Shown piece by piece: positions 233 through 57,853 of a DNA stretch of 64,000 bases. Made by a program: the position numbers and the translations under genes. Every line of letters starts with the position of its first letter. The first letter of the stretch is position 1. The notes under the pieces are model-generated. The model searched no databases. It saw only the letters and a list, made by a program, of their open reading frames with translations, and was not told the origin of the DNA. This DNA is from Candidatus Tanganyikabacteria bacterium (GTDB lineage: Bacteria > Cyanobacteriota > Sericytochromatia > S15B-MN24 > VGJW01): contig VGJW01000001.1 in the NCBI GenBank assembly GCA_016867265.1, positions 1 to 64,000 on the forward strand, given 5' to 3'.

Positions 233-1279
233 CTACTTGGTCGCGGCGGGCTCGGCCTTGGCCTTGGGGGCCGCAGCCTTGCGGGGCTTGGCCTTGACGG
301 CCGCCTTGACTGCCGGCAGCTTGCCGCCGGTCTTCAGCATGTCGCGCCAGGGATAGTGCCGCGTGTTGGTATCCGCCTCGGACTTCGCCAACTCGATGAC
401 GTAGTCGCTGAAGGCGTCGACGACCTTCTTGAAGTACGGCTCCGTCAGCGAGTAGAAGTCCATGTCGGGTGCCGGGTTCATGAAGTCGATGGCATAAGGG
501 ATGCCGTCGCGAACCGCGAACTCGACCGAGTTCATGTCGTAGCCCAGCGCGTGGTTGATGACGCGGGCATCGCGCAGGATGCGCTCCGCGAGCGGACCCT
601 TCTCGAACTCGTCCGACTGGACGTAGGCGCCGAAGCCCGTGCGCTCCTTGGCGCCAGGATCATACTTGATGGGGATGACCGTGTCCTTGCCGATGCACAG
701 GCAGCGGCAATAGCTCTCGAACTCGATGCCTTCCTGCAGCACCATGACCAGTTGGCCGCTCTTGGCGTAGTTCTCGAAGACTTCCTGCGGCGTGCGGCAC
801 TTGTAGACGTGCTTCCAGCCACCGCCGTCATAGGGCTTCAGGAAGCAGGGGAAGCCCACGTAGTTGAAGATGTCCTCCCAGTCCATCAGCATCATGTTGC
901 GATGGCTCTTGTCCGAGGTGTTGGGATTCGGCGTGAAGGACGGCAGCACCACCGTTTTGGGCACGGCCACGCCCAGCTGCTCGACAAGCGCGTTGTCGAA
1001 GAACTTGTCATCCGCTAGCCACCAGAAGGGGTCATTGATGACGTAGGCACCCTTGAGCGCCTGGTTCTTGAGCCACGGCTTGTACATGTGGATCTCGTGC
1101 GAGATGCGGTCCACGATGACATCGTAGGCCTTGCCGTCGTTCATCTTGGTGACGCCCACCTTGGCGAACACCGCTTCGACTTCGCCGTTGCCCTTGGTAT
1201 TGACAGCCTCGATGAAGGCCTTCGGGAAGGTCTCTTCCCAGCCCACCAGAAGCGCAACCGTCTTCTTCTGCTTCGCCAT
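233..1279 (-). CDS. ATP-grasp ligase (RimK/D-Ala-D-Ala ligase-like) with Lys/Ala/Pro-rich C-terminal tail
   Basis: This 348-residue protein is a probable ATP-grasp carboxylate-amine ligase, which would activate a carboxylate as acyl phosphate and join it to an amine. A glycine-rich ATP-grasp segment (KPYDGGGW, about residues 147-154) and a metal/ATP-binding region (EFAVRDGIPYAIDFMNPAPD, about 255-275) support the fold. The last ~30 residues are low-complexity Lys/Ala/Pro (AAPKAKAEPAATK at the end), like histone-H1-type tails. The ATG at 1279 is preceded by GGAGGA at good spacing. It is the last gene of a four-gene leftward operon, 26 bases after an M29-like peptidase. The substrate is unknown; the operon partners suggest a small peptide or modified amino acid. 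Confidence 0.8.
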   Translation of the reverse strand: MAKQKKTVALLVGWEETFPKAFIEAVNTKGNGEVEAVFAKVGVTKMNDGKAYDVIVDRISHEIHMYKPWLKNQALKGAYVINDPFWWLADDKFFDNALVEQLGVAVPKTVVLPSFTPNPNTSDKSHRNMMLMDWEDIFNYVGFPCFLKPYDGGGWKHVYKCRTPQEVFENYAKSGQLVMVLQEGIEFESYCRCLCIGKDTVIPIKYDPGAKERTGFGAYVQSDEFEKGPLAERILRDARVINHALGYDMNSVEFAVRDGIPYAIDFMNPAPDMDFYSLTEPYFKKVVDAFSDYVIELAKSEADTNTRHYPWRDMLKTGGKLPAVKAAVKAKPRKAAAPKAKAEPAATK

Positions 1280-1305
1280 GCTTCCTCCGTGCCCGTCGGG
1301 GCCAC

Positions 1306-2334
1306 TCAACTGTCGATCAGGAACACCCCATCGGCCATGATGCACTGGCCGTCGAGCCAGATGTTGCAACCACGGGCCAGGAGATCGATATGGGCGGGGC
1401 TGGACCAGTCGGCACCGGTCAGCACCCCGCAGGGTTCGCCAAAGGCGATGTGGAAACCGGGGATCTTCTCGTCCTGGAGGAGGTTCCCGGTGAATTCGGT
1501 AACGCCGATGTTCGTGCCCACCGCAACCTCGCCGATGCGGTTGGCGTTGGGCGCGTCGTTGACGTAGTCCCAGAACTCCTGCGCGAGGCCGTCGAGGTCC
1601 GACGTGACCGTGCGGATGCGGGAGTTGGTGATCTCGACCGTCAGGGGCGTGGCGACGAGATCGCCGTACTTGGCACTGAAGTAGTCCCCGGCCGGTCCGT
1701 CGCACACCCATACGCCGCGTACCAGCGAAGGGTGGGTGAAAATCTCGCCGCCGGGCAGGTTGCCCCAAGCGTCGCGTGAGATGAGTCCCGAGGTCTTGAT
1801 CCAGCGGTACTTGAGGGGGTCGTGCTCGACTTCGAGGTCGGTACCGGCAGGCGAGGTCACGCGAATGACCCGTGTCTCGGACAGCATGCGGCGCAGACCG
1901 AGCGACATACGGTTGATGCGGTCGAAGTCGGCCCGCATGCCCATGCGCATGATCTGCTCGGTAATGCCGACCATGTGGCCGTAGCGGACCTTCTTGCGCG
2001 TCGCGAGGTTGATGACCTCGGCGCGGCTGGGCACCTCGCCCGGTTGGGGCTTGACGGCATAGAGGGTTGCGCCGCTGCGTGCCACGCTCTCGAGGATCTC
2101 CCGCGGCGTATGCGCCATAGGCCGGAGTGCATAGTCCTCGACGACATAGTCCTGGACCTCGGCGCCCACGGCCTTGAGCTCGTCGTAGAGGCAGGCCGCC
2201 ACCGTCAGCGTATCGCGGTCGGTAATCAGCGTGACCTTCTCGCCCTCGCGCACCTTCAAGCAGGTCTGCACCGCGTTCGCAGCACCGGGCCTGAGCTCCT
2301 CGTCGAAGGCCACGAGGTCGAGACGGGTCTTCAA
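1306..2334 (-). CDS. M29-family aminopeptidase-like metalloprotein
   Basis: This 342-residue protein resembles the M29 thermophilic aminopeptidases (AmpT/AmpS type), which remove N-terminal residues using a two-metal centre. Candidate metal ligands lie in the C-terminal third in the order expected for the family: Glu in RIGEVAVG, Glu in LLQDEK, His in FHIAFGE and His in AHIDLLA. The start is a TTG whose last two bases overlap the TGA of the upstream gene (TTGA at 2331-2334), which implies translational coupling. A peptidase among three ligases suggests either trimming of a ligated product or that the fold is used on a peptide-like metabolite. The family call is fairly secure; the substrate cannot be told. 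Confidence 0.78.
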   Translation of the reverse strand: MKTRLDLVAFDEELRPGAANAVQTCLKVREGEKVTLITDRDTLTVAACLYDELKAVGAEVQDYVVEDYALRPMAHTPREILESVARSGATLYAVKPQPGEVPSRAEVINLATRKKVRYGHMVGITEQIMRMGMRADFDRINRMSLGLRRMLSETRVIRVTSPAGTDLEVEHDPLKYRWIKTSGLISRDAWGNLPGGEIFTHPSLVRGVWVCDGPAGDYFSAKYGDLVATPLTVEITNSRIRTVTSDLDGLAQEFWDYVNDAPNANRIGEVAVGTNIGVTEFTGNLLQDEKIPGFHIAFGEPCGVLTGADWSSPAHIDLLARGCNIWLDGQCIMADGVFLIDS

Positions 2335-3461
2335 TGCAGCGGCATCTCCACCCGCTCGGGCACCCCGACCATGGTCTGGGCGAGGATGTGGTCGACGACG
2401 GCCTTGACGTCGCCGCCCGATTCCTTGAAGACCTCGAGCTGCCGGTCAGCGTCCGTGCCCTGATCCAGGATGCGGTAGATGTGCTCGACCTCGGCACGCG
2501 AGCCGAGGGGGTCGAGCACGTCGTCGACGAACTGCACGAGCTCGTGAATCAGGTCCTTGGTATGGACTTCCTTGTTCTTGCCGAAGTCGATCATCTTGCC
2601 GTCGAGGCCATAGCGGCTTGCCCGCCACTTATTCTCCTCGATGAGGGCCCGGGGGTATTCCCGGAACTGCATGTTCTGCGTACGCAGCGTGTAGAGCTTG
2701 GCCACGAGCGCTTGGATCAGCGCCGTGATGGCGATGGTCGTGTCGACGCTGGTGGGGATGTCGCAGACGCGGAACTCGATGGTGCTGAAGAAGGGGTGCG
2801 GCCGCAGGTCCCACCAGATCTTCTTGCCGTTGTCGATGCACTCGGTCTCGATCAGCGTCTTCACGTAGCGGTCGAACAAGCTGTACGACTCGAAGGCATC
2901 CGGGATGCCGGTGCGCGGGAACCGCTTGAAGACCGAGCAACGGTAGCTCTTGAGGCCGGTGTTGCGGCCGACCCAGAAGGGCGAGCTGCAGGACAATGCG
3001 AGGATGTGGGGCAGGAAGTACCGCGCCTGGTTGAACAACTCGATGGCCTGATCGTTGTTCTCGATACCGACGTGTACGTGCAGGCCGAAGATCAGGTTGC
3101 CGCGGGCGATGTCCTGCAGGTCCTCGACCAGCGCGTGGTAGCGCGGTGCCTCGGTGATGTCCTGCTGGGCCCAGTCGCTGAGCGGATGCGTTGCCGCCGC
3201 TGCGATGCCCAGGCCGTTCTTGCGCGCCAGATCCGAGACGATGCGGCGCAGCTTGACGACATCGGCACGGGCCTCGGCCACGTTCTTGCAGATGCCGGTG
3301 CCGACCTCGACCACCGACTGGTGCATCTCCTGCTTGACGTGTTCGCCAAGCAGGACGCTGCCCTCGTCCATCATCACGGAGATGTGGCTGCGCAGCTCCC
3401 GGGTTGCGGGATCGACGATCTGGTATTCCTCTTCGACGCCCAGCGTGAACTGCTCGAACAT
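2331..3461 (-). CDS. YbdK-type carboxylate-amine ligase (glutamate-cysteine ligase GCS2 family)
   Basis: This 376-residue protein belongs to the GCS2 family (E. coli YbdK type), whose members form gamma-glutamyl or related amide bonds from a carboxylate, an amine and ATP. Family motifs are in order: TLGVEEEYQIVD near the N-terminus, the GLHVHVG metal/ATP motif, SSPFWVGRNTGLKSYR, and WWDLRPHPFFSTIEFRVCD. The ATG at 3461 has GGAG upstream. A longer reading frame exists upstream, but its extra residues look like noise and it would overlap the previous gene. The previous gene ends 4 bases upstream and the next starts inside its stop codon. Whether it makes gamma-glutamylcysteine or another amide is not shown by sequence. 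Confidence 0.88.
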   Translation of the reverse strand: MFEQFTLGVEEEYQIVDPATRELRSHISVMMDEGSVLLGEHVKQEMHQSVVEVGTGICKNVAEARADVVKLRRIVSDLARKNGLGIAAAATHPLSDWAQQDITEAPRYHALVEDLQDIARGNLIFGLHVHVGIENNDQAIELFNQARYFLPHILALSCSSPFWVGRNTGLKSYRCSVFKRFPRTGIPDAFESYSLFDRYVKTLIETECIDNGKKIWWDLRPHPFFSTIEFRVCDIPTSVDTTIAITALIQALVAKLYTLRTQNMQFREYPRALIEENKWRASRYGLDGKMIDFGKNKEVHTKDLIHELVQFVDDVLDPLGSRAEVEHIYRILDQGTDADRQLEVFKESGGDVKAVVDHILAQTMVGVPERVEMPLH

Positions 3462-3465
3462 GGGT

Positions 3466-4809
3466 CTAGCTCCGTGGTGAGACGACGAACGTGGGGACGA
3501 TGCCGGCACCAGCCGTGACATTGGCCAGCGCCGAGGCGGACAGGCGAGTCAGGATACCCTCGACCTCGCCCTCGAAGACATAGGGATCCAGATCGACCAA
3601 CTGCCGCTGGAAGGTCAGGCCCTCGCCGGTCCATGTCGGGAAGTCCATGTAGGCGACCTCGACGGCCTGCTGCACGAGGTAGTCCTGATCGACGGCCTCA
3701 TCGACCGCCAGATCCCACGCGGCCTGGTCCATGGTCCAGCCGATGTGGATGCCCTTGCCGCCGTACTCGTCATTCGGCTTGAGGACGAGGCGCTCGCGGT
3801 TGGCCTTGCTCCAGGGCACCAAATCGATGGTCGTGCCGTCGTGCTCGGTCCGGTCATCCGTCAGGATGCGCGACCAGGGGATGTGTGCCCGGATGGCCTC
3901 CTGCTCCCCGGAGGTGAAGAGGTGTTGAAGGTCCTCGGCCGTCAGCAGGGCGAAGATGGCCTTCTTGTGGAGGTACTTGCTGCGGAAGGGGTTGATGACG
4001 CAGACCTTGCGTTCGCGGTAAGCCTCGAGCATGGGCTGGACTTCGTCGAACTTCTCGAGGAACTCGTTGGTCAGGACCCTGCGGTAGACAAGATCGATGG
4101 CCACGCCGTCCTTCGTCCGCAGGCGCTCCCCGTCGTACGTCAGGTCGCGCGGGTCGGCAATGTGCGTCTCAAGACCCTCGGACGTGAAATATTCCTTGCA
4201 GAGCTCGAACTCGGAATAGGTCGGGACATCGCTCCAGTCCACGATGGCGATGACGGGCTTGCCCTTGCCGCCCCACTCGGCCCACGTCGCCAGCAGCGTC
4301 TCGCGCAGGCGGCGCCGCGTCTCGAAGGGCCGGACCTCGAAGTCCTGCTGGAAGCTGCGCATAACGGGCCAATCGAGGAACACGCCGGCCAGGACCTCGG
4401 TGTAGGCGGGGCCTGCGGGGCACTCGGCGTTGAGCTCGACGAAGCTCAGGCGGTCATCGACGAGGAAACTGTCGAAGCGCGCCATCGGGCTTACCCGACG
4501 GTAGCCCGGGTCGATGGCGGCAAGCTCGCGCTCGCGCGGCGTCAGGCCGAGGCGGTCTTGCAGGTCGTCGCGGCCGGCGATGACCGGCGCCAGCTTCTCG
4601 AGGGCCGACCAGATGTGCCGGACGACCCGACGAATCTGCTCGTACTGCGCCGGCGTCAGCATCTGAGGCCGGAAGTAGTGGCAGCTGACCCGCTCCCCGA
4701 AGGTCACCCGCGCATCGCGGATGCGGTCCAGGAAGGCGGACAGCTCGGAGGCGGGCAGGGCTGCCTCGTCGATGAGGGTGTGGTAACGCTGGACTTCCGG
4801 GACGGACAA
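3466..4809 (-). CDS. Circularly permuted ATP-grasp protein (glutathionylspermidine-synthase-like)
   Basis: This 447-residue protein resembles the circularly permuted ATP-grasp group related to the synthetase domain of glutathionylspermidine synthase. The nucleotide-binding segment is near the C-terminus (KPNDEYGGKGIHIG, about residues 343-356), with ELNAECPAGPAY in the N-terminal half. I chose the TTG at 4809 because AGGAG lies 8 bases upstream. A GTG at 4854 would add an Arg/Pro-rich stretch of 15 residues and has a poorly spaced ribosome site. It is the first gene of the operon, followed after 4 bases by the GCS2-like ligase. Such proteins often sit in uncharacterised amide-ligase neighbourhoods; the substrate is unknown. 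Confidence 0.8.
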   Translation of the reverse strand: MSVPEVQRYHTLIDEAALPASELSAFLDRIRDARVTFGERVSCHYFRPQMLTPAQYEQIRRVVRHIWSALEKLAPVIAGRDDLQDRLGLTPRERELAAIDPGYRRVSPMARFDSFLVDDRLSFVELNAECPAGPAYTEVLAGVFLDWPVMRSFQQDFEVRPFETRRRLRETLLATWAEWGGKGKPVIAIVDWSDVPTYSEFELCKEYFTSEGLETHIADPRDLTYDGERLRTKDGVAIDLVYRRVLTNEFLEKFDEVQPMLEAYRERKVCVINPFRSKYLHKKAIFALLTAEDLQHLFTSGEQEAIRAHIPWSRILTDDRTEHDGTTIDLVPWSKANRERLVLKPNDEYGGKGIHIGWTMDQAAWDLAVDEAVDQDYLVQQAVEVAYMDFPTWTGEGLTFQRQLVDLDPYVFEGEVEGILTRLSASALANVTAGAGIVPTFVVSPRS

Positions 4810-4993
4810 GGGGGCGCTCCTGGGACGGGACCTGCGGGGGCGACGCGGGCGCACGCACGGTTGCGACGCCCTCCAAGGCCGATGCTAACACGGTTTTGCC
4901 GGGGTCGGCAAACCGGTTGCAGGGCAGCCTTAATGCAGGTTTGAGGCCTCGTTAACCGAGCTTTCCGGGGATTCCGGGGATAGAACTGATGGT

Positions 4994-6211
4994 ATGGATA
5001 GCCAAGGCCTGTCGAACTTCGCCCAGGGTGCGTGGGCGAAGATCAAGGACGTGGCCGGAGCGGCAGGTCGCCGCGCCGGTGAGTTCGCCCGCGGGCCGGG
5101 TGGCGGAAAGCTGGTGCAGCACGCCCGGGACGTCTTCACGCCCAGCGAGGTCATCGAGGGCTGGCAGACGGTGGGCCGGGGCGTAGGCTCCGTGGGTGGC
5201 GCGGCCCAGCCCATCCGCAACGTGGCCGAGCGTGCCGTCGAGGCTGCGCGGCAAGCGGGTTCGGGCGGTGCGGCCTCGGTGGTGCGCGAGGCCGCCGGCA
5301 GCGCCGGTCGTGCGGCCCGGTCCGTGGCCGATACCGTCGCGCGGGGTGGTGCTGCGGGTGGCGTGCCGTTACGGGGCGCCCTCGAAGGGATGCAGGGCTT
5401 GCCGCGTGACCTCGCCAAGCAGGTCGTCACCAACAGCAGGGTTCTGCGCACGCCCGGTGGCTTGCAGCGCGTTCAGGATGTCGAGGTGTTGCGGGCGCGG
5501 TGGATCAAGCCCCCGCAAGGCATACCCGGTGCGGGCAGTGCCGGTGGTGGCGCCGCGGGTGGAGCGGTTGGTCCTGTGGTCGGTGCAGGTTCAGGCGCAG
5601 GCGGCGCCGGTGCCTCGGGCGCCGGCCAGGGAGTCGCGCGTGCCGCGCGTGGCGCCCGAGGGGCAGCCTCGGGCGGGGCAGGCGGTGCCGGTGGCGCGGG
5701 TCAGGCCGCAAGGGCTGCCGAGGGTGCCGGTCGCGCGGCGGGGAGTGCCGGTCGCTCGGCCAAGGCCGCCAAGGCTGCCGGTGATGCCGCCAAGGCCGCC
5801 GGGGAGGCTGCCAAGGCTGCCAAGCCGTGGAATTGGAATCTCATCAAGGCCGGCTTCAAGCAGATCGCTCAGGGGGCCTTCAAGGCCGCCAAGGTGTCCA
5901 GCGTGTTTGCCGGCGTGCTCTCGCTGGTGCAGAACGGCTACATGATGCTGACGGGCCGTCAGGGCCTGCCCGAGACCATCGGGGCCGTGGTCGCCGATAC
6001 GGCGGGCGGCTTTGTCGGCGGTGGCCTGGGTGCCGTCCTGTCAGGCGGGGCGCTGGCCGTTGCGGCCAGCTTCGGCATCACGGCGGGCCTGCCTTTCATC
6101 GCGATCGGCTTCGCGGCCACGACCCTCGGCTACATGCTGGGCAACAGCATGTTCCAGGGCCTCTTCGGCGACGGCCTTCGCGGCGTCGTCACCAAGTTGC
6201 TTGGCGGCTGA
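4994..6211 (+). CDS. Gly/Ala-rich low-complexity protein with C-terminal glycine-zipper membrane region
   Basis: I do not recognise this 405-residue protein. The middle (about residues 85-275) is dominated by Ala, Gly, Arg and Ser. It includes glycine-rich runs and a Lys/Ala repeat (AKAAGDAAKAAGEAAKAAK, about 255-275) that could form an amphipathic helix. The last ~95 residues are hydrophobic and small-residue rich, with GGFVGGGLGAVLSGGALAVA and GLPFIAIGFAATTLGYMLG. This is the pattern of glycine-zipper helices that insert in or pack on membranes. There is no signal peptide. The ribosome site is weak. The next gene starts inside its 3' end. It could be a membrane-bound structural protein or a pore-like protein; no function is proposed. 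Confidence 0.6.
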   Translation: MDSQGLSNFAQGAWAKIKDVAGAAGRRAGEFARGPGGGKLVQHARDVFTPSEVIEGWQTVGRGVGSVGGAAQPIRNVAERAVEAARQAGSGGAASVVREAAGSAGRAARSVADTVARGGAAGGVPLRGALEGMQGLPRDLAKQVVTNSRVLRTPGGLQRVQDVEVLRARWIKPPQGIPGAGSAGGGAAGGAVGPVVGAGSGAGGAGASGAGQGVARAARGARGAASGGAGGAGGAGQAARAAEGAGRAAGSAGRSAKAAKAAGDAAKAAGEAAKAAKPWNWNLIKAGFKQIAQGAFKAAKVSSVFAGVLSLVQNGYMMLTGRQGLPETIGAVVADTAGGFVGGGLGAVLSGGALAVAASFGITAGLPFIAIGFAATTLGYMLGNSMFQGLFGDGLRGVVTKLLGG

Positions 6212-8241: not shown

Positions 8242-9207
8242 ATGAAGACCCGAGCCCGATTCATGCTTCCCGGCCTGCTGGGCCTGTCGGCGCTCGCCGG
8301 CTGTGGCGCCCCGGCGATGACGGTCGCACCCTCGCTGGGGGAGCCGGCTACCGCCGCCATGCTGGCGCGTGCCGCCGAGACGGATGAGTCGCAGTTGCTG
8401 GATGCCCGGCGTCGCTCCGGGTTCAAGTTCGGCCTCGGGGCCGACCTGAAGGGTGCCAAGGGCGTCACCGTGGATGGCGAAGACGGCGGGTCCCTGATCG
8501 GCTTCGAGACCATGGCCAGTCGGCCCGTCAGCGTCGATCTGCGGCGCATGTGCAGCCCCGTGTCCAACCAGGGCCAGTTCGGCAGTTGCACGTCCTTTGC
8601 CACGGTCAAGGGCCTGCAGGAGTTCCTGCTGCGCAAGCGGGGCAACGACGAGCCCCAGTCGCCTGCCTACACCTGGTATCAGACGCGGGCCGCCATGGGC
8701 GTGCGCAACGAGGACTCCGGTGCCTCGATGGAGCTGGCCACCAAGATGCTGGACAACCTGGGCACGGTTGACGAGGCTGCCTTCCCGTACCTGGATGCCA
8801 AGGGCCAAGAAGATGCCAAGTTGCGTCAGGATTTCCTGTCGCGCAAGCCGGGCTCGGACCTGGTCGCGGCGGCCAAGAAGAAGCGCATCGTCAGCGGGTT
8901 CAGCGTCGCGACCAAGCTGTCGGCCGTGCGGACCAGCCTCGAGAAGGGCATGCCCGTCCTGCTGGGGATGATGGTGTTCCAGAGCATCGGCAAGACCGGC
9001 AAGGACGGCTTGATGCCGATCCCCACCAACAACGACAAATTCATGGGCGGACATGCCGTCCTGGCCGTGGGCTACGACGACAAGAAGCAGGTGCTGGTCA
9101 TCCGCAACTCGTGGGGTAGCGACTGGGCGGCTGGTGGCTACTTCCTGATGCCTTACAGCTACGTCAAGATGGGTGGTCTGCGGGTCGCCGTCGTGCCCAA
9201 GACCTGA
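8242..9207 (+). CDS. Papain-like (C1 family) cysteine protease, lipoprotein
   Basis: This 321-residue protein has a lipoprotein signal peptide (basic start, hydrophobic core, lipobox LSALAGC near residue 20), so it is probably anchored in the envelope. The rest is a C1-type papain-fold peptidase. The catalytic Cys is in SNQGQFGSCTSFA (about 110-122), the catalytic His in MGGHAVLAVGYD (about 268-279) and the Asn in IRNSWGSDWAAGGYF (about 290). About 90 residues between signal and catalytic domain may form a propeptide-like region. The Gln of the oxyanion hole (QGQFGSC) is retained, so it should be active. It ends just before a strong terminator hairpin. Confidence 0.88.
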   Translation: MKTRARFMLPGLLGLSALAGCGAPAMTVAPSLGEPATAAMLARAAETDESQLLDARRRSGFKFGLGADLKGAKGVTVDGEDGGSLIGFETMASRPVSVDLRRMCSPVSNQGQFGSCTSFATVKGLQEFLLRKRGNDEPQSPAYTWYQTRAAMGVRNEDSGASMELATKMLDNLGTVDEAAFPYLDAKGQEDAKLRQDFLSRKPGSDLVAAAKKKRIVSGFSVATKLSAVRTSLEKGMPVLLGMMVFQSIGKTGKDGLMPIPTNNDKFMGGHAVLAVGYDDKKQVLVIRNSWGSDWAAGGYFLMPYSYVKMGGLRVAVVPKT

Positions 9208-55832: not shown

Positions 55833-57293
55833 TCAGGCCTTCATCGGCACGTGAGCCATGAAGTCCTGGGCGAAACGAACTGCGTACTGGTTGACCAGCT
55901 CCTCGACACGCTTGGGATCGTCCGAGCGCACGATGACACCGGCGTGGTGCTTCTTCTTCTGGACCCAGACCACCTCGGGGTCGTTGTAGGGCGTCAAGTC
56001 CGGGTTCTCCTGGCGGGCCAGGCAGACGATGGCCCCGGCATAGCCGTTGCGGACCTTGGGCAAGGTGTAGTTCGTCTGGGTCTCGATCTTGGTCCACTCG
56101 AACCAGAGGCACACGTCGGTGGCATACCACGCGACGTCGGGGATCTTGGCTGCGCCGACGCGGGCCCCCGCCTCGAGGAAGTAGAACTTGCCGTCCTCGC
56201 GGCCCTTGATGTACTCGATGTGGGTCACGCCCCGCACCAAGCCCAGGCTGGCCACGACCTGCTTGTTGATCTCGATGAGTGCCTTGTAATCGGCGGACTT
56301 GCGGTCGATGGTCCGGGTGGTGAAGACACCGCCAGACTTGTTCAGGTCCAGCATGGGCGTCCCGTACTTGGAGACGGAGGCGAACTCGACCTCGCGCTCG
56401 GCAACGACCGAGTCGACGTGGTAGACGTCGCCGGGCGTGTACTTCTCGAGCAGGTAATACGACTGCTTGTCGCCAAGCTCCATGATCTTCTTCCAGACAG
56501 CCTGGTCGTCCTTCAGGACCTCGATGCCCATCGAAGCCGCCTCCTGCCTTGGCTTGATGACCCAGGGTGCAGGGACGCGCTGCATGTAGGCGTGAACTTC
56601 GTCGTGGTTCAGGACGTGGACGAAGTCAGGCACCGGGATGCCGTCTTCGCGCGTCTTCACGCGCATGGCGAGCTTGTCGCGGAAGTAGCGCATCGTCGTC
56701 TCGCCCATACCGGGGACGCGCATGTGCTCACGCAGCATGCAGGCGATCTCGACGTCGAAGTCGCCCATCGGCACGATGCGGTCGATCTTGCGGCGCTGGG
56801 AGATGTACGCGATGACATTGCGAACGACCTTCTCGTCGAAGATGTCCGGGACCGCGATGATCTCCTCGAGGATGTCGCGGGGCCACTCGTCCTTGAGACG
56901 CTTCTCGCCCGTCAGCACGATGACCTTGTGGCCGGCCTTGGTCGCTTCCTTCATGAAGGGGCGCCCGGACACGAGGCAGGCGATGCAGAGGATACGCTTG
57001 GGCCCATCCTGCTCGGCGAGCAAGGCCTTCTGGGCGGCCTTGGCCTCACCCTTGGAGGTGCTTGCCTTGCGGGTGGCGACCTTGGCCGTCGCCTGGGGCG
57101 CCTCGGCCTTGGTCACGGCAGGCTTCGCCGCCGCGGTGCGCTTGGCCACAGGCTTTGCCGCCGTGGCCCTGGGGCTGGGCGGCGTCGCGGGAGCCGATGC
57201 CTCGGCGACCGGGCTGGCCGGAACCGTTGCCGTCAACTCGGCCGCCTTGGGGGCAACCTTCTTGGTAGTCGCCGGGGTTTTTTTCTTGTCCAA
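55833..57293 (-). CDS. ATP-grasp ligase with histone-H1-like N-terminal tail
   Basis: This 486-residue protein has a ~95-residue N-terminal low-complexity tail of Lys, Ala, Pro and Thr (TTKKVAPKAAELTATVPAS and KTAAAKPA-like runs), then an ATP-grasp ligase of the PylC/carbamoyl-phosphate-synthase-like type. The core has ILCIACLVSGRPFMKEATKAG (pre-ATP-grasp domain, about 100-120), APWVIKPRQEAASMGIEVL (about 236-254) and HIEYIKGREDGKFYFLEAGARVGA (split across about 375-398). The substrate is unknown. The TTG at 57293 has GGAG 10 bases upstream; a run of seven A residues follows the second codon and is a slippage-prone site. It is downstream of an FKBP gene on the same strand. Confidence 0.82.
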   Translation of the reverse strand: MDKKKTPATTKKVAPKAAELTATVPASPVAEASAPATPPSPRATAAKPVAKRTAAAKPAVTKAEAPQATAKVATRKASTSKGEAKAAQKALLAEQDGPKRILCIACLVSGRPFMKEATKAGHKVIVLTGEKRLKDEWPRDILEEIIAVPDIFDEKVVRNVIAYISQRRKIDRIVPMGDFDVEIACMLREHMRVPGMGETTMRYFRDKLAMRVKTREDGIPVPDFVHVLNHDEVHAYMQRVPAPWVIKPRQEAASMGIEVLKDDQAVWKKIMELGDKQSYYLLEKYTPGDVYHVDSVVAEREVEFASVSKYGTPMLDLNKSGGVFTTRTIDRKSADYKALIEINKQVVASLGLVRGVTHIEYIKGREDGKFYFLEAGARVGAAKIPDVAWYATDVCLWFEWTKIETQTNYTLPKVRNGYAGAIVCLARQENPDLTPYNDPEVVWVQKKKHHAGVIVRSDDPKRVEELVNQYAVRFAQDFMAHVPMKA

Positions 57294-57324
57294 GGAATGG
57301 AATCTCCGTAAGCGGTGGGGGCAA

Positions 57325-57768
57325 TCAGGGCTGGCGAACGTCGAGCAACTCGACGTCGAAGAGCAGGGTGGCGCGCGGGGGAATCGGACCGGTGCCGTTC
57401 TCGCCGTAGGCCATCGTGTGGGGAATGGTCAGTTTGCGCTTGCCGCCGACCTTCATGCCCTTGACGCCTTCGTCCCAGCCCTTGATGACCTCACCCATGC
57501 CAAGGATGAAATCGAAGGGCTGGCGGCGGTCGAGGGACGAGTCGAACTTGGCGCCGTTGGTCAGGCGGCCGGTGTAGTGCACCGAGACCCGCATCCCGGG
57601 CCGAGCTTCCTTGCCCTTGCCGACCACGAGGTCCTCGATGACGAGGCCATCGGCCCGCTTGGCCGGGTACGCGGCCTTCTTGCCGCCGGAGGCGAGGGCG
57701 GGGGACACCTGCGTCGCGGCCAATGCCACGGCGGCGAGCAGAATTCCGGACCAGCGGAGGGTGGACAC
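57325..57768 (-). CDS. FKBP-type peptidyl-prolyl isomerase, secreted
   Basis: This 147-residue protein has a signal peptide (GILLAAVALAATQVSPALA, about residues 8-26) and one FKBP domain with VHYTGRLTNGAKFDSSLDR, FDFILGMGEVIKGWDEGVKG and the C-terminal IPPRATLLFDVELLDV. Active-site residues Tyr, Phe, Asp and Trp are present. It should fold proteins in the periplasm. The GTG at 57768 has GAGG 9 bases upstream; a GTG at 57828 would add a Pro-rich lead. It is followed after 31 bases by the ATP-grasp gene. Confidence 0.92.
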   Translation of the reverse strand: MSTLRWSGILLAAVALAATQVSPALASGGKKAAYPAKRADGLVIEDLVVGKGKEARPGMRVSVHYTGRLTNGAKFDSSLDRRQPFDFILGMGEVIKGWDEGVKGMKVGGKRKLTIPHTMAYGENGTGPIPPRATLLFDVELLDVRQP

Positions 57769-57853
57769 GACGGCGAACCTCGCATGGGGCCGTGGCCCCG
57801 GCAGTTGGGGGAACGCCCCAGTATACACCCGGTGGCAGAGCGTCCCCGTCAGT

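Follow-up and report, generated by a model that had tools for sequence, protein, structure and literature searches.

Lysine/alanine/proline-rich C-terminal tails recur in a RimK/LysX-fold ATP-grasp ligase of a conserved amidoligase set

Disordered C-terminal tails rich in lysine, alanine and proline (K/A/P) came and went many times, across distant phyla, in a family of ATP-grasp ligases with a RimK/LysX-type fold. One member of this family, here called grasp2, is encoded in the window, i.e., the whole stretch of 64,000 nucleotides that was analysed, whose host appears to belong to a non-photosynthetic (Sericytochromatia-like) lineage. Together with a second ATP-grasp ligase of the window, grasp1, it belongs to one conserved amidoligase set that further comprises a circularly permuted ATP-grasp ligase (CP-ATP-grasp), a GCS2/YbdK-type carboxylate-amine ligase (GCS2), an M29-type metallopeptidase (M29) and often an esterase or a subtilase. 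We propose, with a probability of about one half, that the grasp2 tail, disordered and cationic, tethers the enzyme to a polyanion, which could be nucleic acid, the ribosome, polyphosphate, or the acidic substrate or product of the pathway. The longer tail at the N terminus of grasp1, though striking, is the uninformative one of the two.

Two tailed ligases of one gene set

A preliminary description of this DNA reported two ATP-grasp reading frames with Lys/Ala/Pro tails, and both are present, on the minus strand (Table 1). The last 31 residues of grasp2 contain 11 A, 8 K and 4 P with a net charge of +8, and residues 1–95 of grasp1 contain 29 A, 15 K, 12 T and 11 P with a net charge of +12; lysine makes up 2.4% of the predicted proteome of the window. 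In the AlphaFold2 models the cores of both enzymes are folded, and pLDDT is below 50 at residues 324–348 of grasp2 and at residues 1–6 and 8–80 of grasp1. Such ends are rare on the rest of the contig: among its 118 other predicted proteins, the K/A/P test (for C-terminal ends, a 20-residue segment inside the last 45 residues in which 4 or more residues are K and 15 or more are any of K, A, P, T, S, R and G) finds no C-terminal and one N-terminal tail, and a net-charge test finds two at either end. Both tails are disordered, K/A/P-rich and strongly positive terminal stretches, and in this respect histone H1-like in the manner of AlgP and PhaF; neither carries tandem repeats of the KPAA type, the C-terminal tail having been judged by eye only.

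Table 1 Features of the window. Gene starts come from a simple codon-usage caller and are uncertain, stops are certain; gene clusters (c3, c6, c9) were formed by single linkage of BLAST hits.
Feature	Coordinates	Strand	Basis
C-terminal K/A/P-rich disordered tail of grasp2, 31 aa + stop	233-328	-	composition; pLDDT; recurrent in family
grasp2, RimK/LysX-fold ATP-grasp ligase, 348 aa, ATG start	233-1279	-	fold match; rimK_fam below cut-off
M29-type metallopeptidase, set member	1306-2334	-	Pfam Peptidase_M29 5.4e-10; cluster c9
GCS2/YbdK-type carboxylate-amine ligase, set member	2331-3461	-	Pfam GCS2 2.6e-62; PRK13515 9.6e-165 (both on 2331-3521); start from codon-usage caller
Circularly permuted ATP-grasp ligase, set member	3466-4809	-	Pfam CP_ATPgrasp_2 1.3e-9 (on 3466-4854); cluster c3; start from codon-usage caller
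Divergent neighbour, A/G/K-rich protein, conserved C-terminal part of ~130 aa	4994-6211	+	47-53% identity over 123-135 C-terminal residues among the neighbours here and in L057 and L058; no Pfam family at 0.01
grasp1, ATP-grasp ligase of L-amino-acid-ligase (RizA/BL00235) kind, 486 aa, TTG start at 57293	55833-57293	-	Pfam, phmmer, fold
N-terminal K/A/P/T-rich disordered tail of grasp1, 95 aa	57009-57293	-	composition, codon usage, pLDDT; only in this species
FKBP-type peptidyl-prolyl isomerase, directly upstream of grasp1	57325-57768	-	Pfam FKBP_C 8.9e-36 (run on 57325-57828); start from codon-usage caller

Grasp2 contains no Pfam family at 0.001, and it matches the NCBIfam model TIGR00768 (rimK_fam) at 2.1e-7 with 30.6 bits against a cut-off of 143.4, so that the model does not place it in the RimK family; its relatives in loci L311, L304 and L109 score 46.2, 24.9 and 24.6 bits. 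The AlphaFold2 model is nearest to RimK (5zct; Z 21.6, rmsd 2.9, 260 residues aligned), with LysX/ArgX (5k2m) at Z 20.9, and RimK and LysX/ArgX chains occupy ranks 1–9 with Z from 21.6 to 20.2. Since PsnB and D-Ala-D-Ala ligases follow at Z 19.4 and lower, the margin of this fold assignment is small. For grasp1, the Pfam families ATP-grasp_4, ATP-grasp and ATP-grasp_3 are each barely over their cut-offs, the top phmmer match is the L-amino acid ligase 4wd3 (3e-20), and the AlphaFold2 model is likewise nearest to 4wd3 (RizA; Z 33.7, rmsd 3.5, 363 aligned), followed by 3vot (Z 33.2), with PurK-type chains at Z 30.0 and lower and BacD/YwfE chains at about 27. By its nearest ATP-grasp fold and by its best sequence matches, grasp1 is of the L-amino-acid-ligase kind (RizA/BL00235/BacD).

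The preliminary description spoke of two unlinked paralogous folds, which is misleading, as both ligases belong to one conserved gene set; the shared function that it had deduced from the similarity of the tails is supported by this common set, not by the tails. The set stands together in some phyla and is split in this genome, into 233–4809 and 55833–57293. The contig starts at window base 1, and the grasp2 neighbourhood is therefore seen on its upstream side only. Here the GCS2 gene scores 547.8 bits with NCBIfam PRK13515 (cut-off 371). The divergent neighbour of the set (4994–6211, plus strand), in which no Pfam family is found at 0.01, shares a C-terminal part of 123–135 residues, 47–53% identical, with the neighbours in two other loci (L057:2907-4103 and L058:5697-7148, both on the minus strand). 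By eye, the conserved C-terminal part is glycine-rich and hydrophobic, and the A/G/K-rich N-terminal part is fast-changing.

A single-protein query of genome contigs found no relatives of grasp1, and a search of the contigs with an alignment gave 80 loci from named genomes, the best 80 of at least 578 relative-encoding stretches (597 candidates). These best 80 span Acidobacteria, Chloroflexi, Deltaproteobacteria with Myxococcales, Ignavibacteria, Armatimonadetes and others, and in 8 of them grasp1 shares its locus with grasp2, CP-ATP-grasp, GCS2 or M29. The order in a Bryobacteraceae locus (L109) is esterase, grasp2, GCS2, M29, an unassigned gene and grasp1. Viewed from the side of grasp2, at least one of CP-ATP-grasp, GCS2 and M29 is found in 24 of 40 loci, which were drawn from 56 places listed, five more being already in the sample. 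The two ligases also co-occur at the level of genomes: grasp2 is detected at 1e-10 in 42 of 49 genomes with grasp1, a count built on 50 of the 80 loci and on genomes of unstated completeness. Among 301 Chloroflexota genomes grasp1 is present in 9, grasp2 in 72 and both in 8, including the sample centre G170, which was picked for having both; grasp1 is hence rarely seen without grasp2, and grasp2 often without grasp1. Among 146 genomes related to that of the window, grasp1 matches at 0.001 in 18 and strongly in nine, grasp2 strongly in eight, and both strongly in eight; G015 has a weaker grasp2 match (8e-41). As to the chemistry and purpose of the set, we infer that it probably assembles or trims some small peptide or amino-acid conjugate.

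Several further genes border these loci. A gene of the FKBP cluster lies directly upstream of grasp1 in five genomes of the window's family (the window, L062, L063, L065 and L067); G001 carries two FKBP-cluster genes in tandem, and of its grasp1 copies the FKBP-paired one (L019) is the less similar. In L069, a small gene next to grasp1 was considered as an FKBP gene and rejected, as it encodes an HNH protein. A gene of cluster c6 directly precedes grasp1 in six loci (L073, L074, L076, L105, L113 and L136); the product of the one scanned, that of L074, is an esterase that contains an AMPK1_CBM domain. Two small genes (L107:8240-9002, minus strand) in the vicinity of a Chloroflexota grasp1/grasp2 cluster both encode AGGTGF near the end, and the one scanned (8721-9002) has a Nif11 domain (PF07862, 4.9e-11); we take this domain and the AGGTGF end to resemble precursors of peptide natural products.

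Recurrence of the C-terminal tail

According to the preliminary description, the tails are absent from standard family members. This holds for the N-terminal tail of grasp1 and fails for the C-terminal tail, which recurs in relatives of grasp2. In the loci examined, 12 of 52 grasp2 C-terminal ends pass the K/A/P test against 10 of 1091 other genes of the same loci, and 12 of 52 against 28 of 1091 pass the net-charge test, by which the background rate is higher. Partner enzymes in the same loci pass neither test (CP-ATP-grasp 0/26, GCS2 0/30, M29 0/13, esterase 0/15, S8 subtilase 0/6). Both tests were designed after the tails of the window had been seen, and the rows are related, so that significance values which ignore kinship overstate the difference.

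The same pattern is found in evenly drawn samples of two phyla. Grasp2 is present at E 1e-60 in 72 of 301 Chloroflexota and 53 of 199 Acidobacteriota genomes, about a quarter of the sample, with the centres G170 and G172 counted in although they were picked for having grasp2. These genomes list 73 and 57 places, of which 6 and 9 were left out because of a contig end or because the core end was not recognised. Among the measurable places, 8 of 67 in Chloroflexota and 18 of 48 in Acidobacteriota pass the K/A/P test, and 10 of 67 and 18 of 48 pass either test. By eye, the last 40 residues of the left-out proteins are helix-hairpin-helix-like in L356, cut by the contig in L381, and without a lysine-rich tail in the others. 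In 20 loci picked for their grasp2 ends, the other genes pass the K/A/P test in 4 and the net-charge test in 11 of 206 cases, and the partner enzymes again pass neither (CP-ATP-grasp 0/9, GCS2 0/9, M29 0/5, esterase 0/7; together 0/30).

A quick tree was built from 106 grasp2 cores after removal of the tails, L223, L226 and L227 not being part of this set. On it, the tail label (31 rows) requires 14 changes, at least 10 of them forced by starred branches, which are the less sure ones; the changes count gains and losses alike, these not being separable. Shuffled labels require 26.9 changes. The tails are thus clustered in clades, yet their state changed many times. Seventy-two of the 106 proteins are without a C-terminal tail by the tests used, some of them with a short basic end or a basic N-terminal end, which argues that the tail is not essential to the chemistry. 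The sequence of the tail is not conserved, and length and sequence vary even between close relatives. The eight grasp2 proteins of the window's order, the window included, extend 11 to 58 residues past the last core tryptophan. With respect to conservation in orthologues, therefore, length and sequence of the grasp2 tail vary freely, whereas its K/A/P composition recurs in many separate lineages and was not seen in the partner enzymes. Lineages would accordingly appear to gain, lose and remodel the tail but to keep its composition.

An origin of the tails driven by G+C content was considered and rejected. Tailed loci have 40–69% G+C (mean 57%) without a link to high G+C, and untailed loci have a mean of 59%, in a table of 164 rows with mixed tail criteria in which three genes are entered twice (L161 = L107, L167 = L109, L177 = L202).

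In a few proteins (L121, L220 and, by eye, L218) a basic stretch is found at the predicted N-terminal instead of the C-terminal end. Three Acidobacteriota proteins (L199:753, L206:953 and L207:6324) have C-terminal extensions of 96–112 residues, with an alanine-rich, possibly amphipathic stretch followed by a basic end. Separately, a gene between CP-ATP-grasp and grasp2 (L192:6586-7122, minus strand) encodes a protein that is membrane-like by eye and has a long A/P/K/S-rich N-terminal tail of its own.

In one Chloroflexota clade the end of grasp2 takes another form. The Pfam family HHH_5 (PF14520) matches L311 at 4.5e-5, under the cut-off, and L312 at 6.3e-8, over the cut-off, and in both it follows a linker of proline, alanine and lysine, at the same end that carries the tails elsewhere. 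Helix-hairpin-helix-like ends are found in 3 of 67 measurable Chloroflexota grasp2 proteins and have a single origin on the 106-row tree, so that they count as one hint and not as many.

What the tails may do

Recurrence and composition suggest that grasp2 binds a polyanion, which no conserved motif or partner gene names. The likely job of the tail would be to hold this one ligase of the set on the polyanion, by charge rather than by sequence. Nucleic acid is a plausible target, given the AlgP-like composition and the helix-hairpin-helix found at the same place in one clade. A bolder version, which we regard as rather unlikely, is that a RimK-fold amidoligase of a widespread multi-ligase set would act in a form anchored to the nucleoid, to the ribosome or to polyphosphate, with the cationic tail re-invented many times and the helix-hairpin-helix once, recruiting one step while the other enzymes stay free. 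If grasp2 worked on such a scaffold, a protein or a nucleic acid there, rather than a small metabolite, might serve as its acceptor.

The tails may, alternatively, be neutral or nearly neutral low-complexity expansions at permissive ends, without function, a possibility that we consider doubtful but which several observations fit: the grasp1 tail is unique to this species among the 95 grasp1 proteins examined, the grasp2 tails were gained or lost repeatedly, and their lengths differ among near relatives within tailed clades, as those of weakly constrained disorder also would. Neutral expansion should, however, affect the ends of the partner enzymes as well, and not one of those counted above passes either test. 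Furthermore, lysine is rare in the predicted proteome and tailed loci cover a wide range of G+C, so base composition alone does not explain the tails.

Binding of the pathway's own acidic substrate or product, for instance a growing poly-glutamate or an acidic carrier, by which the tail would confer processivity, is in our view unlikely. It would agree with the presence of a GCS2-type ligase in the set and with the fold of grasp2, nearest to that of the poly-alpha-glutamate synthetase RimK and of LysX/ArgX, enzymes that act on the acidic carrier protein LysW. However, no recurrent small acidic (LysW-like) carrier gene was seen by eye beside the set among neighbours of up to 200 aa, the helix-hairpin-helix end of one clade indicates nucleic acid, and most grasp2 proteins are without a tail by the tests used.

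The N-terminal tail of grasp1 adds little to the tether proposal. In orthologues and close paralogues at 60–76% identity the N-terminal leader measures 0 to about 30 residues and cannot be aligned with this tail; some of the short leaders are lysine-rich (G006, G003) and others not. The N-terminal tail test is passed by 1 of 95 grasp1 proteins examined, the window's own, with no recurrence among the rest, and the C-terminal test by 0 of 95. The tail is hence private to this species as far as the relatives examined reach; the preliminary description had held that orthologues without the tails, or tails that vary without constraint, would speak against its idea, and this is the case for grasp1 but not for grasp2. 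Grasp1 would thus carry a leader that has expanded in this species alone and that its relatives have in a short and variable form, and if functional, the tail is probably of the same electrostatic kind as that of grasp2. A common origin of the two tails was considered and rejected: their longest shared DNA stretch is 12 bases, a length reached by 83 of 500 codon shuffles, and no tandem repeat is found at score 30 in 56900–57400, so that there is no sign of duplication. The longest internal DNA repeat of the N-terminal tail is 9 bases.

It is improbable that the grasp1 tail merely reflects a wrong start call, with the real protein beginning near the core. The start is a TTG with GGAG 10 bases upstream, a second TTG lies at about residue 91, the orthologues begin close to the core, and codon usage does not prefer the grasp1 frame in the ten-codon blocks 0–9 and 30–39. 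It does, however, prefer the tail frame over the other two in the remaining 7 of 9 blocks of the tail, and in 0 of 3 blocks just upstream of the TTG; moreover, the tail is lysine-rich while the predicted proteome is lysine-poor, and the open frame has no earlier start codon than the TTG at 57293, which lies 31 bases past the FKBP gene.

The suggestion that the tails are substrates of the ligases themselves, by self-ligation to lysine side chains or to the C terminus, would suit a lysine-rich and usually C-terminal tail, RimK extending the C terminus of a protein according to PMC12239564, but is very improbable given that the final residue is not conserved among 44 tailed rows with one gene entered twice (K 10, A 10, S 8, E 4, others), that the basic stretch is at the predicted N-terminal end in a few relatives, and that so many grasp2 proteins lack a C-terminal tail by the tests used.

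Should the tails indeed be tethers, they would single out, in a set of five or more, one uncharacterised ligase as the step anchored to nucleic acid or to some other polyanion, with a hint of where to search for the product of the pathway. The grasp2 tails would moreover offer a natural experiment on how a disordered tail evolves again and again through nothing but its composition.

Comparison with known systems

The enzyme kinds of the set are already known. Iyer et al. (2009, Mol Biosyst 5:1636) reportedly treat amidoligase systems with ATP-grasp and glutamine-synthetase-like ligases, in which several different amidoligases stand together with peptidases, a kind akin to the set considered here. 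Judging by titles and the starts of abstracts, no description of this particular set was found in the open-licence literature. A lysine-rich or H1-like tail on an ATP-grasp enzyme or RimK-fold ligase was likewise not found in the available parts of that literature, nor was RimK together with ATP-grasp and helix-hairpin-helix found in the open-licence literature.

Grasp1 shares its fold with the L-amino-acid ligases RizA, BL00235 and BacD and has its best sequence match in 4wd3 (RizA), to which it is 20% identical in the structural alignment. Unlike theirs, its gene lies beside an FKBP gene within the window's family or, in the 8 of 80 loci mentioned above, near the amidoligase set, and in the window's species only the protein has a long basic N-terminal tail. 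Grasp2 shares the ATP-grasp fold over residues 6–300 with RimK, the poly-alpha-L-glutamate and S6 glutamate ligase, and with LysX/ArgX. In contrast to these, it is often accompanied by CP-ATP-grasp, GCS2, M29 or esterase genes, and some members of its family end in a basic tail or in a helix-hairpin-helix.

The appended ends have counterparts on unrelated proteins. In L311, the linker and the helix-hairpin-helix at the C terminus match the corresponding ends of the NCBIfam models PRK12278, PRK12311 and PhasinPhaH (1.6e-8 to 3.7e-7), which represent extended ribosomal proteins L21 and S2 and the phasin PhaH; the scores are far under the cut-offs, and the appended part alone is in common. The closest parallel to the grasp2 tail is provided by the histone H1-like KPAA tails of AlgP and PhaF in Pseudomonas, which are equally disordered, K/A/P-rich and C-terminal. 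According to PMC9239181, the K/A/P tail of AlgP binds DNA and is needed for the spacing of polyphosphate granules. The AlgP and PhaF tails belong to granule-associated proteins and are longer, with a repeat region of 154 residues in AlgP, whereas the grasp2 tail is carried by a metabolic ligase, comprises about 25–100 residues in tailed rows and, in the window, is built without KPAA-type repeats.
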